Assembly (NCBI GenBank): GCA_040757115.1
Contig: JBFLYA010000249.1
Coordinates: 1-5,496 of the forward strand
Length of the DNA stretch: 5,496 nucleotides
Reading direction: 5' to 3'
Origin: a bacterium
GTDB taxonomy: Bacteria > UBA9089 > CG2-30-40-21 > SBAY01
Part shown: in pieces, positions 690-5,496 of the stretch
How positions within the stretch are numbered: the first letter of the stretch is position 1
Layout: each line of letters opens with the position of its first letter
Position numbers and translations under genes: made by a program
Notes under the pieces: generated by a model
Seen by the model: the letters and a program-made list of their open reading frames with translations, nothing else
What the model was told of the DNA's origin: nothing
The model's database searches: none

Positions 690-848
690 TTACACTGTTT
701 CTAAAACCTCATCAGGCACAAAAAAAGCTGTCCTTAAATCTTCAGCATAACTAATAGAACCAACTACACTACCACCATTTACCAGGATAGTATTATCATT
801 AATCGTCTCCTTATTCATCTCTTCTGAGAAGGTAATGCGCGGGGAACT
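690..848 (-). pseudogene. Fragment of a Big_5 / SbsA Ig-like surface-protein domain
   Basis: A short minus-strand frame ends at TAA 690-692 and encodes PRITFSEEMNKETINDNT, then ILVNGGSVVGSISYAEDLRT and AFFVPDEVLETV. The order matches the bacterial Ig-like Big_5 (SbsA) pattern: an ITFSEEMN strand, a Thr/Asn-rich loop, a V-x-G-x-(I/V)-S-Y strand, and T-A-x-F-x-P followed by a Leu. Such domains occur in tandem in secreted or S-layer-associated proteins. Only about 50 residues remain. The upstream end runs into the ATTGGGGTC tandem repeat, and the frame stops about where the last strand (YTVTV-like) would be expected. An ATG at 818 could start a 42-residue peptide, but I see no sign that it is a gene. 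I read it as a decayed piece of a larger surface protein; the family call comes from motif memory. Confidence 0.5.
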
Positions 849-2062: not shown

Positions 2063-2353
2063 TTATGTTTTCTTCAGCGCCGTCAGTTCAGTTATAATAT
2101 TCCCTGCCCAGCGGTAAATATTATTTTCAGCAATAGCCTTCCTCATATTATTCATCCGTTTCTTCTTCTCATTTACCGGCATTTCCAAAGTAAGTTTTAT
2201 CGCCTCAGCAAATTCCTCAATGGTATAAGGGTTGAATTGGATAGCATCGGTTAATTCTCTTGCTGCACCGGTAAATTGGCTTAAGATAAACACACCCAAT
2301 AAATCTTTTTTTGCCTCTACATATTCTTTGGCAACAAGGAGTATTGGGGTCAA
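2063..2353 (-). pseudogene. otsA: 3' remnant of trehalose-6-phosphate synthase (GT20)
   Basis: The frame encodes 96 residues matching the C-terminal end of OtsA: LVAKEYVEA, GVFILSQFTGAARELTDAIQ, FNPYTIEEFAEAI and ENNIYRWAGNII. E. coli OtsA has the equivalent NLVAKEYVAA and GVLVLSQFAGAANELTSAL near its end. The whole enzyme is about 460 residues and makes trehalose-6-phosphate from UDP-glucose and glucose-6-phosphate. About 360 N-terminal residues are gone, including the glucose-6-phosphate site and the DGMN part of the UDP-glucose loop. The break falls inside DGMNLVAKEY: the apparent start (TTG at 2353, then Thr-Pro-Ile-Leu) is encoded by the inserted GAGTATTGGGGTC repeat and is not native. 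The natural C-terminus is retained, ending four bases before the upstream mscS ATG. It is almost certainly inactive. Confidence 0.85.
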
Positions 2354-2470: not shown

Positions 2471-2546
<76 letters not shown>

Positions 2547-2686: not shown

Positions 2687-2765
2687 TGGTCGGGGCGACT
2701 GGATTTGAACCAGCGACCTCATGGTCCCAAACCATGCGCGCTAAACCAAACTGCGCTACGCCCCG
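2687..2765 (-). tRNA. tRNA-Pro (anticodon UGG)
   Basis: A 79-nt cloverleaf with encoded CCA (2689-2687) and discriminator A. The acceptor arm CGGGGCG/CGCCCCG pairs perfectly. The D-stem is GCGC/GCGC with an 11-base D-loop, slightly long. The anticodon stem CATGG/CCATG carries loop TTTGGGA with anticodon TGG. The T-arm is GCTGG/CCAGT around TTCAAAT. It reads CCN proline codons, mainly CCA and CCG. A possible promoter lies about 110 bp upstream: TTGACA at 2903-2898 and TATTGT at 2880-2875 with a 17-bp spacer, but the -10 is weak and the sequence sits in ACTCAAA repeat debris. Confidence 0.96.
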
Positions 2766-2984
2766 AGTATCAAAAAACAGTAACCGTTCAGGTAATCCTT
2801 TACCGCAGAGACGCAGAGAAACAGAGAGGAAAATATCTTTTTTTGTAACCGTTCAGCCGTGTCCATCAGATGGGACAATATTAACTCAAAACTCAAATGT
2901 CAAAACTCAAAACCTTAAAACTAGTGTCGTGTTGAATAAGTTTTGCACGGGGCATCATCAGGTTTCGTAACCTGCAAACGGATA
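2766..2984. other. Gene-free repeat debris upstream of tRNA-Pro
   Basis: I see no convincing coding sequence on either strand. The stretch holds two exact copies of GTAACCGTTCAG (2780-2791 and 2845-2856). Between them is a CGCAGAGACGCAGAG tract (2804-2818). A run of ACTCAAA-type repeats follows (2883-2913). There is a perfect hairpin with a 6-bp stem and 4-base loop, CAGGTT-TCGT-AACCTG (2959-2974); it has no T-run, so it is not a typical terminator. Confidence 0.7.
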
Positions 2985-3244
2985 ATTGGTAACTGGTAAT
3001 TGGTAATTGGTTAAATAGTTTCGTCCTGAGCTCAGCCGGTAATCCTTCAGTTATCAGTGGTAAAAACTAAATAGAAATTTTCTCTCGCAAAGACGCAAAG
3101 TTCGCAAAGATTATAATTTATTCCTTTGCGTTCTTTGCGCCTTAGCGAGAAATTTAATCTTTATGCCTTTCTCCCACCAATAACTGACCGATTACCTCAG
3201 CCGAACGGTATTTAATTACCAGTTACCAATTACCAGTTACCAAT
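2985..3244. repeat. 260-bp nested palindromic (MITE-like) element
   Basis: Three pairs of inverted arms nest around a 13-base centre. Outer: 2985-3017, made of about 7-bp TTGGTAA units, pairs with 3209-3244; the first 21 bases are identical. Middle: 3038-3060 pairs with 3174-3196 (19 of 23). Inner: 3083-3109, the TCTCGCAAAGACGCAAAG type, pairs with 3123-3149 (23 of 27). CTGAG (3026-3030) also pairs with CTCAG (3196-3200). As single strand it would form one long interrupted hairpin. There is no ORF, so it is non-autonomous if mobile. Its 3244 end interrupts the protease pseudogene immediately after DTGA. No target-site duplication is obvious. Confidence 0.8.
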
Positions 3245-3333
3245 GCTCCCGTATCAACCTTAGCATCAAGCTCTATCGCAGGTTTATCTTTTAAAGGATT
3301 CCTGAGTTTAATTGTGGTCTAGCCTATGCCCAT
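3241..3333 (-). pseudogene. Truncated clan AA (retropepsin-like) aspartic protease
   Basis: From an ATG at 3333 the frame reads MGIG, TAG, then TTIKLRNPLKDKPAIELDAK and VDTGAL. Bacterial single-domain clan AA aspartic proteases begin in this way: a short strand starting MG, an IKLxNP motif, then a VDTGA active-site loop in which Asp is catalytic (the protein acts as a dimer). Two lesions inactivate it. Codon 5 is TAG where the family usually has an aromatic residue, one base from Tyr. The frame is cut directly after DTGA-Leu by the 260-bp palindrome, removing the other about two-thirds of the roughly 100-120-residue protein. I could not find the missing part on the far side of the palindrome. 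Its promoter and ribosome binding site look intact, so inactivation may be fairly recent. Identification is by motif only. Confidence 0.65.
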
Positions 3334-3340
3334 TTTAATA

Positions 3341-3381
3341 CCCCTTTATTATATTTTATCACAATATTTGTTTTTGGTCAA
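3341..3381 (-). promoter_or_regulatory. Sigma-70 promoter and ribosome binding site of the broken protease gene
   Basis: On the minus strand the -35 is TTGACC (3381-3376) and the -10 is TAAAAT (3358-3353), with a 17-bp spacer. Transcription should start near 3346. AAAGGGG (3347-3341) is a good Shine-Dalgarno sequence seven bases before the ATG at 3333. The -35 begins only eight bases after the lptD stop codon, so the gene was an independent unit. With its gene destroyed, this promoter would now transcribe through the palindrome towards tRNA-Pro. Confidence 0.65.
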
Positions 3382-3388
3382 CTAATTT

Positions 3389-5290
3389 TTATTTTAAATT
3401 AAAATTAAGCCAAAATTCTGTATCTTTACTATGTCGGACAGAAAATTTAGCATTCCAACAATGTCCGTCTTTTTCAAGAATCAATCCGCTTTCTTTTATT
3501 CTACGGTCTTTGAGGTCATAATACATCTGGAGTCGAATATGAGTTTTTGGTGAGATGTTAAAACTAACATAATTAGACACATCTAAAATATCCTTATTTT
3601 CTACAGAATGCTCCCTGTAGAAAAATACACTTCCTCCATATTGCCACTTATCCCTTGCTAAATCAAAGTAACTCTCAACTTCCTCTATTTGAGATGATTT
3701 GAAACTATAGGTAGTTTTTAAGGAACCTGCAAGATTATTTTTTAAGGCAAAGTGGACATCAGCAATTAATGGAAATAAACGTATTTTATTGATTTTTAAA
3801 GGTTCATCTTTGTGTTTGCGAAGGTCAAATCCTGCTCCAATTTCTCCCCGTATCTTTCTATTCATCCACAGGTATAATGTCCCGGTTAGTGCATTTGTTT
3901 TTACTCCATAATATTCGTCTGTCTTAAACTTTTTTGTTAAATTATGATTTAGATTCAGTTCTGAGTATCCTCCGATTTTATTTCTTAAATTTAAACCCAG
4001 ATTTAACTCTCCGGTTGCTTTTTCCTCTTCTTTAACTATTCCTGTAAGTCCAAATTTAGGGGAGAAAACTACCCTGTCTGATAAGAAATTTGCCTTTTTT
4101 AAAAAATTAACACCAACAATTCCTTTAAGATAGTGTGTGTTGGTCATTGAACCAGATTGATTTGCTACTTCAACATTTAAATTCGAATACCAATTATTTC
4201 TTTTGATTGATTTGGTCTGCAGAGTCAATTCAGGCAAAAGAGTCGTCTCTTTTTTAAAATCATTAAATTCCCTTGCCCAGCACTCTATTTCCTCACCGAC
4301 TAATCTAATGGTATAATCTGGATAGGTTTTAGTCACGGTGAGGTAGTTTTTTAATTCCCATGTTCCCGCACTACATCTTCCTTCGATAGGATAGTCGCGG
4401 GTGACATTTTTATCGCTTAGAGATTGTAGATAAAGAATTCCGGTTATATCTTTAAATCTTTGAAGGTGTTTTGCATCTATCTCCCATCGTTTTGTATCTT
4501 TAACATCATCGGGCTTTTTCCGCTCGTGAATATAATAGAGATAAGTTTTTCCTTGCGAAATGCTATCTTTCCAATATTTATGTTCTATCCCATTCCCAAA
4601 CCCCTGGTCTTCAAGGAAACTTAAGTGTAATGACCCAATAGACTTTGAAGTAAAGGCATAATCGTAAGTCACTCCTACGGAATTCCCTTTTTCTTCACTT
4701 TTCCCGGTCTTCATAATTATTTTGCCCTTTCTTTCTTTCAAAGACATAGAGTAAAAAGGGAGATAAAATAATGGCACCTTTCCTACTTTAAAAACAATCC
4801 TTTTTGCTATTATTTTTTCCTTTGGGTGAACGATAATTTTACCAGCCTTCAGGCAATAATGAGGTCGAGGTAAATCACAGGTAGTTAGAGAGGCATCCCT
4901 TAAAGTAATAGTTCCGGTTTCAAACAAGGCGTCAGAACCTCTACAATAATAAGGTTTTATAAAAATATATGGTTCTTTCATTTTACCTTGTTTTGTCTTC
5001 AAATTATAGTTTGCCTCGTTACTCTCAAATTTTTCTCCTTTCTCGCCTCTCAAAACTACTTTACCTCTGGCTAAAAGTTCATCTTTGGTCAGATTCAATT
5101 GCATCCAATCTGCCTCTAACCCCATTTCATCAGAATTTAACTTTACGCTACCCCACAGCGTAACTATCTCTTCACTGCCTATCTTTAGATACTCGGCATG
5201 GTCTGCATGCTCAAGGGTTACCGTTCCCTGGGCAGACAAATTTATACCTGGTATTATCAATAAACTAAAAGATAAAAGTAGTCTTTTCAT
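3389..5290 (-). CDS. lptD: LPS-assembly protein LptD (OstA/Imp-like)
   Basis: Outer-membrane beta-barrel that, with lipoprotein LptE, inserts lipopolysaccharide into the outer leaflet. The protein has 633 residues; many LptDs have 700-800. Residues 1-20 form a Sec signal peptide with probable cleavage after LSA. Residues about 22-110 are the OstA beta-jellyroll, with repeating strands such as VTLWGSVKLNSDEMGLEAD and ELLARGKVVLRGE. Residues 135-185 hold the family signature TTCDLPRPHYCLKAGKI followed by GKVPLFYLPFYS. The rest (about 190-633) is alternating beta strands typical of the barrel, ending GHCWNAKFSV and EFWLNFNLK. Cysteines at 116, 138, 146, 306, 337 and 611 could form disulfides, but the E. 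coli pattern is not obvious. The ATG at 5290 has AAGGTGA just upstream. It has no visible lpt or surA neighbour. No hairpin terminator follows the TAA. Confidence 0.9.
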   Translation of the reverse strand: MKRLLLSFSLLIIPGINLSAQGTVTLEHADHAEYLKIGSEEIVTLWGSVKLNSDEMGLEADWMQLNLTKDELLARGKVVLRGEKGEKFESNEANYNLKTKQGKMKEPYIFIKPYYCRGSDALFETGTITLRDASLTTCDLPRPHYCLKAGKIIVHPKEKIIAKRIVFKVGKVPLFYLPFYSMSLKERKGKIIMKTGKSEEKGNSVGVTYDYAFTSKSIGSLHLSFLEDQGFGNGIEHKYWKDSISQGKTYLYYIHERKKPDDVKDTKRWEIDAKHLQRFKDITGILYLQSLSDKNVTRDYPIEGRCSAGTWELKNYLTVTKTYPDYTIRLVGEEIECWAREFNDFKKETTLLPELTLQTKSIKRNNWYSNLNVEVANQSGSMTNTHYLKGIVGVNFLKKANFLSDRVVFSPKFGLTGIVKEEEKATGELNLGLNLRNKIGGYSELNLNHNLTKKFKTDEYYGVKTNALTGTLYLWMNRKIRGEIGAGFDLRKHKDEPLKINKIRLFPLIADVHFALKNNLAGSLKTTYSFKSSQIEEVESYFDLARDKWQYGGSVFFYREHSVENKDILDVSNYVSFNISPKTHIRLQMYYDLKDRRIKESGLILEKDGHCWNAKFSVRHSKDTEFWLNFNLK

Positions 5291-5326: not shown

Positions 5327-5368
5327 CACCGAAAAACGCGAAAAACACGAAAAAAAGGTAAGCGTTCA
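5327..5368. repeat. CGAAAAA-type tandem repeat plus GTAAGCGTTCA motif
   Basis: Three roughly 9-bp units, CACCGAAAAA, CGCGAAAAA and CACGAAAAAA, run from 5327 to 5355 and are followed at once by GGTAAGCGTTCA (5357-5368). The latter differs by one base from the GTAACCGTTCA copies at 2780 and 2845. The tract lies 37-78 bases upstream of the lptD start, inside its presumed leader or promoter region. I could not identify a convincing -35/-10 pair for lptD in it. Confidence 0.6.
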
Positions 5369-5383
5369 AGTGGTGTAACAAAA

Positions 5384-5414
5384 GGAGATGTGGAGATTAA
5401 GGAGATAGGGAGAT
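5384..5414. repeat. Four GGAGAT units, about 8-9 bp apart
   Basis: GGAGAT occurs at 5384, 5392, 5401 and 5409 (first bases), giving a purine-only-rich tract on the plus strand. The spacing is 8, 9 and 8 bases. It is not an array of ribosome binding sites, because no start codons follow. It looks like a low-complexity dispersed repeat. Confidence 0.6.
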
Positions 5415-5429
5415 ATTATTAAAAAAATT

Positions 5430-5493
5430 GAAATTAATAGAAATTTATGGAAATTTGTTGTTTTCCACAATCAATTTCTACCTATTTCTATAA
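5430..5493. repeat. Imperfect inverted repeat with 10-bp GAAATT periodicity
   Basis: GAAATT starts at 5430, 5440 and 5450, an exact 10-bp period. The arm 5435-5460 is an imperfect reverse complement of 5468-5493 (about 18 of 26) around a short TTTTCCA loop. The element may continue past the window edge at 5496. The helical-period AT phasing could bend DNA upstream of lptD, but it is more likely another dispersed palindromic repeat. Confidence 0.5.
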
Positions 5494-5496
5494 ATT

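Follow-up and report, generated by a model that had tools for sequence, protein, structure and literature searches.

Palindromic elements occur inside Rickettsia genes, where they are inserted in frame and the open frame is kept. IS630-family elements such as ISY100, of the Tc1/mariner family, insert at a target TA and duplicate it (PMC2170065). RUP of pneumococcus is a short, non-coding element of 107 bp with a TA target and termini that resemble IS630-Spn1, an IS630 element of its own genome, and the Correia/NEMIS elements of Neisseria are TA-ended inverted-repeat MITEs with a longer form that contains an internal insert (PMC2229807). Palindromes are reported to provoke chromosomal rearrangement in E. 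coli (PMC3315005).

The DNA analysed here, a stretch of 5,496 nucleotides (the window), contains a palindromic element that we call A. It has the TA target duplication of IS630 and ISY100 but encodes no transposase. Like RUP, A is short and non-coding, with termini resembling those of an IS630 element in its own genome; A is longer than RUP (183-467 bp), its heptamer arms can expand, and a second MITE is often present within it. It differs from Correia/NEMIS in length and in host organism, and its long form owes the extra length to a second MITE that has an 8-bp target duplication of its own. Unlike the Rickettsia insertions, A does not preserve the frame of the gene that it adjoins, which meets stops inside the element. 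That gene has the DTGA motif and the N-terminal strand pattern of the AF_0612-type clan AA proteases (TIGR03698, retropepsin-like) but survives as a stump of 30 codons, one of them amber.

The protease gene was probably truncated by a single deletion with one end inside a nested stack of hairpin elements. The features that bear on this reading are listed in Table 1. We compared the genome of the window (G000) with that of a sister species in the same genus (G001), with a genome of the same family (G002) and with others of the phylum.

Table 1. Features of the window and their counterparts in other sequences.
Feature	Position	Strand	Comparison
tRNA-Arg(UCU), left neighbour	2471..2546	-	
tRNA-Pro(UGG), left neighbour	2687..2765	-	
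Left part of abundant repeat B1, host of B2; right part missing	2780..2846	+	numerous copies in G000 and G001
Left half of palindromic repeat B2, host of A in its loop; right half missing	2847..2920	+	97% to G001:C259
IS630-type MITE A (assigned from termini and flanks), right end missing by at least 40 bp	2921..3243	+	98% match over 322 bp with the 362-bp full copy G001:C219
Left terminal inverted repeat of A, CTAGTGTCGTGTTGAATAAGTTTTGCACGG; target TA at 2922-2923	2921..2950	+	
Left heptamer arm of A, TTGGTAA/CTGGTAA units, number varying among copies	2984..3011	+	alignment of 18 full copies
8-bp target duplication CTCAGCCG, left of C	3031..3038	+	single copy in A elements without C
Inner MITE C, 157 bp (ends GTAATC.../...GATTAC)	3039..3195	+	standalone copies L086, L090; short A copies without C
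8-bp target duplication CTCAGCCG, right of C	3196..3203	+	
Right heptamer arm of A, inverted complement of left arm	3214..3242	+	
Join of A heptamer arm to gene stump, about 1 bp of microhomology	3243..3244		
Clan AA aspartic protease gene, first 30 codons (pseudogene stump, ends ...VDTGA)	3244..3333	-	intact orthologue in G001
In-frame amber, codon 5 of stump	3319..3321	-	sense codon there in 5 of 5 intact relatives
Promoter TTGACC-17-TAAAAT (3381-3353) and Shine-Dalgarno AAGGGG (3346-3341)	3341..3381	-	
LptD/OstA-like outer-membrane protein gene, synteny anchor	3389..5290	-	98% identical orthologue in G001:C412

The stump has the properties expected of the 5' remnant of a small DTG clan AA (retropepsin-like, TIGR03698-like) protease gene. 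The initial annotation had described, in an MGIG frame, a promoter, a Shine-Dalgarno sequence, an ATG and an amber codon, and all of these are in the sequence at 3381-3319 on the minus strand. Translation from the ATG at 3333 through 3241 gives MGIG, the amber stop and then TTIKLRNPLKDKPAIELDAKVDTGAL; read by origin, this is MGIG, the stop and TTIKLRNPLKDKPAIELDAKVDTGA followed by L, with the final L and base 3243 contributed by A. The join had been placed within the DTGA-L codons, and it does follow ...VDTGA, but the L is encoded by the element, and neither end of the element lies at the join. By score alone the promoter was no better than shuffles (1 found, against 2.1 expected by chance), and the intergenic spacer upstream of the stump (3334-3388) differs from that of G001 at 0 of 55 bases. 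The promoter region (3352-3392) is also 88% identical over 41 bp to a stretch just upstream of tRNA-Pro(UGG) in G002 (L111 2007-2047), perhaps reflecting a common promoter type or a tRNA promoter captured by the protease gene.

Profile searches agreed with the proposal that this is a retropepsin-like aspartic-protease pseudogene. The clan AA check suggested with that proposal gave a weak match of the stump to TIGR03698 (14.3 bits, E 0.038), and a profile built from five intact orthologues and paralogues scored 43.7 bits (best of 2000 shuffles, 7.1); a Pfam search of the 31-aa stump gave no match. The catalytic DTG/A motif, VDTGA, is in the stump and in 5 of 5 intact relatives. Nothing of the flap region is left in the window copy, and the hydrophobic-hydrophobic-Gly motif that follows the flap (LIGAV or LVGAV in the intact relatives) is deleted. 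The stump differs from its G001 orthologue at 6 of 90 bases, the amber codon counted among the differences, versus 24 of 1902 in the LptD-like neighbour (p = 0.002), a surplus of changes that is consistent with lost constraint.

The decisive evidence for the identity of the stump was synteny. In G001 (C412; L061 134-514), an intact protease gene of 126 aa occupies the same place, directly downstream of the LptD-like orthologue, and nucleotide identity between the two genomes extends from the LptD-like gene through the promoter and the start codon and stops exactly at window position 3244. Because of this intact syntenic gene and the position at which identity stops, we regard the stump as a pseudogene. 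Against TIGR03698 the intact orthologue scored 47.5 bits (E 1.9e-12; residues 7-109 on 3-104 of 107), which is below the curated cut-off of 57.35. The window gene has lost 96 of 126 codons, its last three quarters, and the remainder is absent beyond A and, at more than 76% identity, from the rest of the 99.87%-complete assembly. Its closest counterpart in G000 is an intact paralogue with 76% identity (C83; L062 1763-2143), and this being the sole candidate, we rejected a move of the remainder to another place in the genome.

Other relatives were found for both genes. Distant relatives of the LptD-like protein match OstA_2 above the cut-off or LptD_N below it, and relatives of the protease found by a scan of genome contigs include MAGs Yes70-25 and Yes70-08. 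Two genomes from one family of the phylum (G008 and G013) have 19-20 TIGR03698-type protease genes each, which is unusually many. In two relatives (L107 4795-8381 and L109 5663-9144), clan AA protease genes have genes for hydrogenase/NuoF-like subunits on one side and, on the other, paired small genes resembling MNT nucleotidyltransferase/HEPN pairs.

The palindrome is one part of a longer element that has lost its right end. The inverted repeat was confirmed (arms 2980-3011 and 3218-3249) and, folded as DNA, has an energy of -69.4 kcal/mol compared to -24.7 +/- 3.4 in shuffles (z = -13; 0 of 100 shuffles as strong). The palindrome of 260 bp initially reported is therefore real, but it is a right-truncated piece of an element that starts at 2921. 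We found 18 full copies of A, using its right end as a search criterion; they run from CTAGTGTCGTGTTGAGTAAGTTTTGCACGG to ...CCGTGCGTTATTTGTTCAACACGACACTAG and are 183-467 bp long, with a variable number of heptamer units. The right 40 bp, present in 18 of 18 full copies by that criterion, are gone from the window copy, which has the left terminal repeat only and is thus truncated, in a family where other copies have both repeats. In two other copies (L080 1334-1800 and L077 1375-1806) just one of the two heptamer arms has grown to many units, which suggests replication slippage.

The terminal repeat (CTAGTGTCGTGTTGAG...) is present at both ends of most full A copies and at both ends of an element in G000 (C265 860-2075) in which A-like terminal repeats enclose an IS630 transposase gene (NF033545, 143 bits, cut-off 100; DDE_3). 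Most full copies read CTAN...NTAN, that is, with TA flanks. Because the terminal repeats match the IS630 element of the genome and the flanks are TA, we conclude that A is an IS630-type MITE; an IS630 transposase presumably mobilised it. The C265 copy may itself be inactive, because its transposase gene is split between overlapping frames. The terminal motif of A occurs 57 times in G000 and 144 times in G001, compared with 0-3 times per genome in nine further members of the phylum, and a DNA search of 31 genomes found A, save the tip of the inner hairpin, in the genus only. The family thus appears essentially confined to this genus.

Four elements are nested in the window: C in A, A in B2, and B2 in B1. 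Standalone copies of C in G001 (L086 and L090) are flanked by perfect 8-bp duplications of other sequences. An uninterrupted B1(B2) composite in G001 (C259), at a location other than the place orthologous to the window, reads AAAACTA followed by ATAGATTC, where the window reads AAAACTA followed by GTGTCG; the empty site of A in this composite is AAAACTA followed by ATAG. Because the left end of A is intact in that TA and the matching site is empty in C259, we conclude that A inserted at a TA in the loop of B2. The window lacks the right half of B2 and that of B1, which together make up 273 bp in C259. The proposed search of relatives for intact orthologues and an empty site thus recovered both, with the empty TA in B2 and not in the protease gene.

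We conclude that 3243/3244, inside the heptamer arm of A, marks the junction of a deletion or of some other rearrangement and not an insertion edge, because the right end of A, the right halves of B2 and B1 and the remainder of the gene are all missing. The precise insertion site at DTGA that had been proposed does not survive these comparisons: the right terminal repeat of A is absent, its left end lies in the TA of another repeat, and the gene does not resume beyond A.

Starting from the stump, its exact join, the intact orthologue, the anatomy and insertion site of A and the missing ends, all of which can be read in the sequences compared, we infer one deletion as the sole event. The clan AA protease gene would formerly have stood directly after the LptD-like gene, with a nested stack, B1(B2(A(C))), downstream of it towards tRNA-Pro and tRNA-Arg. 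A single deletion, with one end in the right heptamer arm of A and the other after protease codon 30, would have taken the right end of A together with the right halves of B2 and B1, whatever spacer there was, and three quarters of the gene from its 3' side. What is left is a dead 5' stump that still has its promoter. Hairpin formation may have been the trigger. The ancestral order of gene, stack and tRNAs was seen in no relative; the G001 contig stops 180 bp past the protease gene and that of another relative (G003) 194 bp past the LptD-like gene. Gene decay of this kind is known, as are its component parts. The intact gene in the sister species makes the decay readable almost base by base, and the case carries a caution for genome reading: the place where a gene meets a palindrome need not be an insertion site, and both ends of the element should be located first.

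Other histories of the locus were weighed against this deletion. The palindrome might have inserted in the protease gene at the DTGA codons and later lost its right end, its left flank being exchanged by recombination with another copy. The native gene does have a TA, a possible IS630-type target, a few bases before the join (which falls between AAGTAGTGT and TGCTCC), and copies could plausibly recombine in a genome so rich in repeats. We consider this history quite unlikely, as it needs three events, the left end of A sits in a target TA of B2 for which a matching empty site exists, and no second half of the gene is in the assembly. An assembly error, in which the join of stump to A is real but the assembly, on passing through the repeat, was carried on into the tRNA region by mistake, is a somewhat more serious concern but still improbable. 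The genome is a 462-contig draft and A is multicopy, its leftward continuation being identical to another copy in G000 over as many as 126 bases and to one in G001 over 184. The junction of stump and A, however, is single-copy and cannot arise from shared words, and both sides look native, A being essentially confined to the genus. For the left side, this is because tRNA-Pro(UGG) and tRNA-Arg(UCU) are also adjacent in G002, of the same family, and the tRNA-Pro genes otherwise seen in G000 are CGG and GGG. An MscS gene of the window was not found in G001-G003, and a foreign left half of the contig, considered for that reason, was rejected on the tRNA pair and the genus-specific repeats.

That the locus still has a function, as a short DTG peptide or as an in-frame palindrome-fused protein in the manner of the Rickettsia elements, is very hard to credit. 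The promoter and ribosome site are conserved, but there is an amber at codon 5, the flap region and the hydrophobic-hydrophobic-Gly motif are gone and the stump carries its surplus of changes. An open palindrome-fused frame, named in the initial annotation as evidence against a pseudogene, was not present; the frame meets further stops within the element. A working protease is ruled out by the frame, and the window copy is a remnant and not a working member of the clan AA family.

The state of other A copies agrees with palindrome-provoked, length-dependent deletion. Both ends were present in 1 of 7 A(C) copies and 21 of 28 short A copies in G000 (Fisher p = 0.006), and in 7 of 9 A(C) copies in G001 versus the 1 of 7 in G000 (p = 0.04), the G001 count being restricted to copies whose ends are not on contig ends and all modules being counted by hand, post hoc, in small numbers exposed to assembly effects. 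Short-read assemblers tend to stop at long hairpins, which may imitate truncation in such a survey. A further copy in G000 (C242; L063 around 1815-1835) has no left end, and its heptamer array begins directly after the stop codon of a gene. Composite nested MITEs, in which a heptamer-armed IS630-type MITE has a second MITE at its tip, may tentatively be seen as preferred deletion end points that trim nearby genes in the genus, with a stability much lower in the long composite than in the short form, but on present evidence we lean against so general a rule. The sister pair G000 and G001, having short and composite forms of A, could be used to relate hairpin length to deletion frequency, and the value of the case lies in its clear anatomy and in this testable link of hairpin length to gene trimming. 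Besides insertion, deletions ending in palindromic mobile elements would be a route to decayed genes in repeat-rich uncultured bacteria. In one A(C) copy in G000 (C149; L065 4644) the cut coincides exactly with the right end of C, so that it looks like a join at the terminal repeat of C.

Several features lie elsewhere in the window. An Rfam search found the two tRNAs and nothing else. The stretch upstream of the LptD-like gene (5357-5496) has a second copy in the genome, 93% identical (L003 940-1088). A gene of glycosyltransferase family 20 (PF00982) survives at 2063-2353 (-) as a C-terminal remnant of 96 aa, which matches profile positions 386-472 of 473. It is cut on its upstream side beside GTATTGGGGTC repeats (2336-2408) and is a second gene remnant adjoining a repeat. 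A 42-aa open frame at 690-818 (-) has beside it, at 842-932, both doubled GGAACTATTGGGGTC units and a REP-like inverted repeat, GGGGTCAGACC...GGTCTGACCC.
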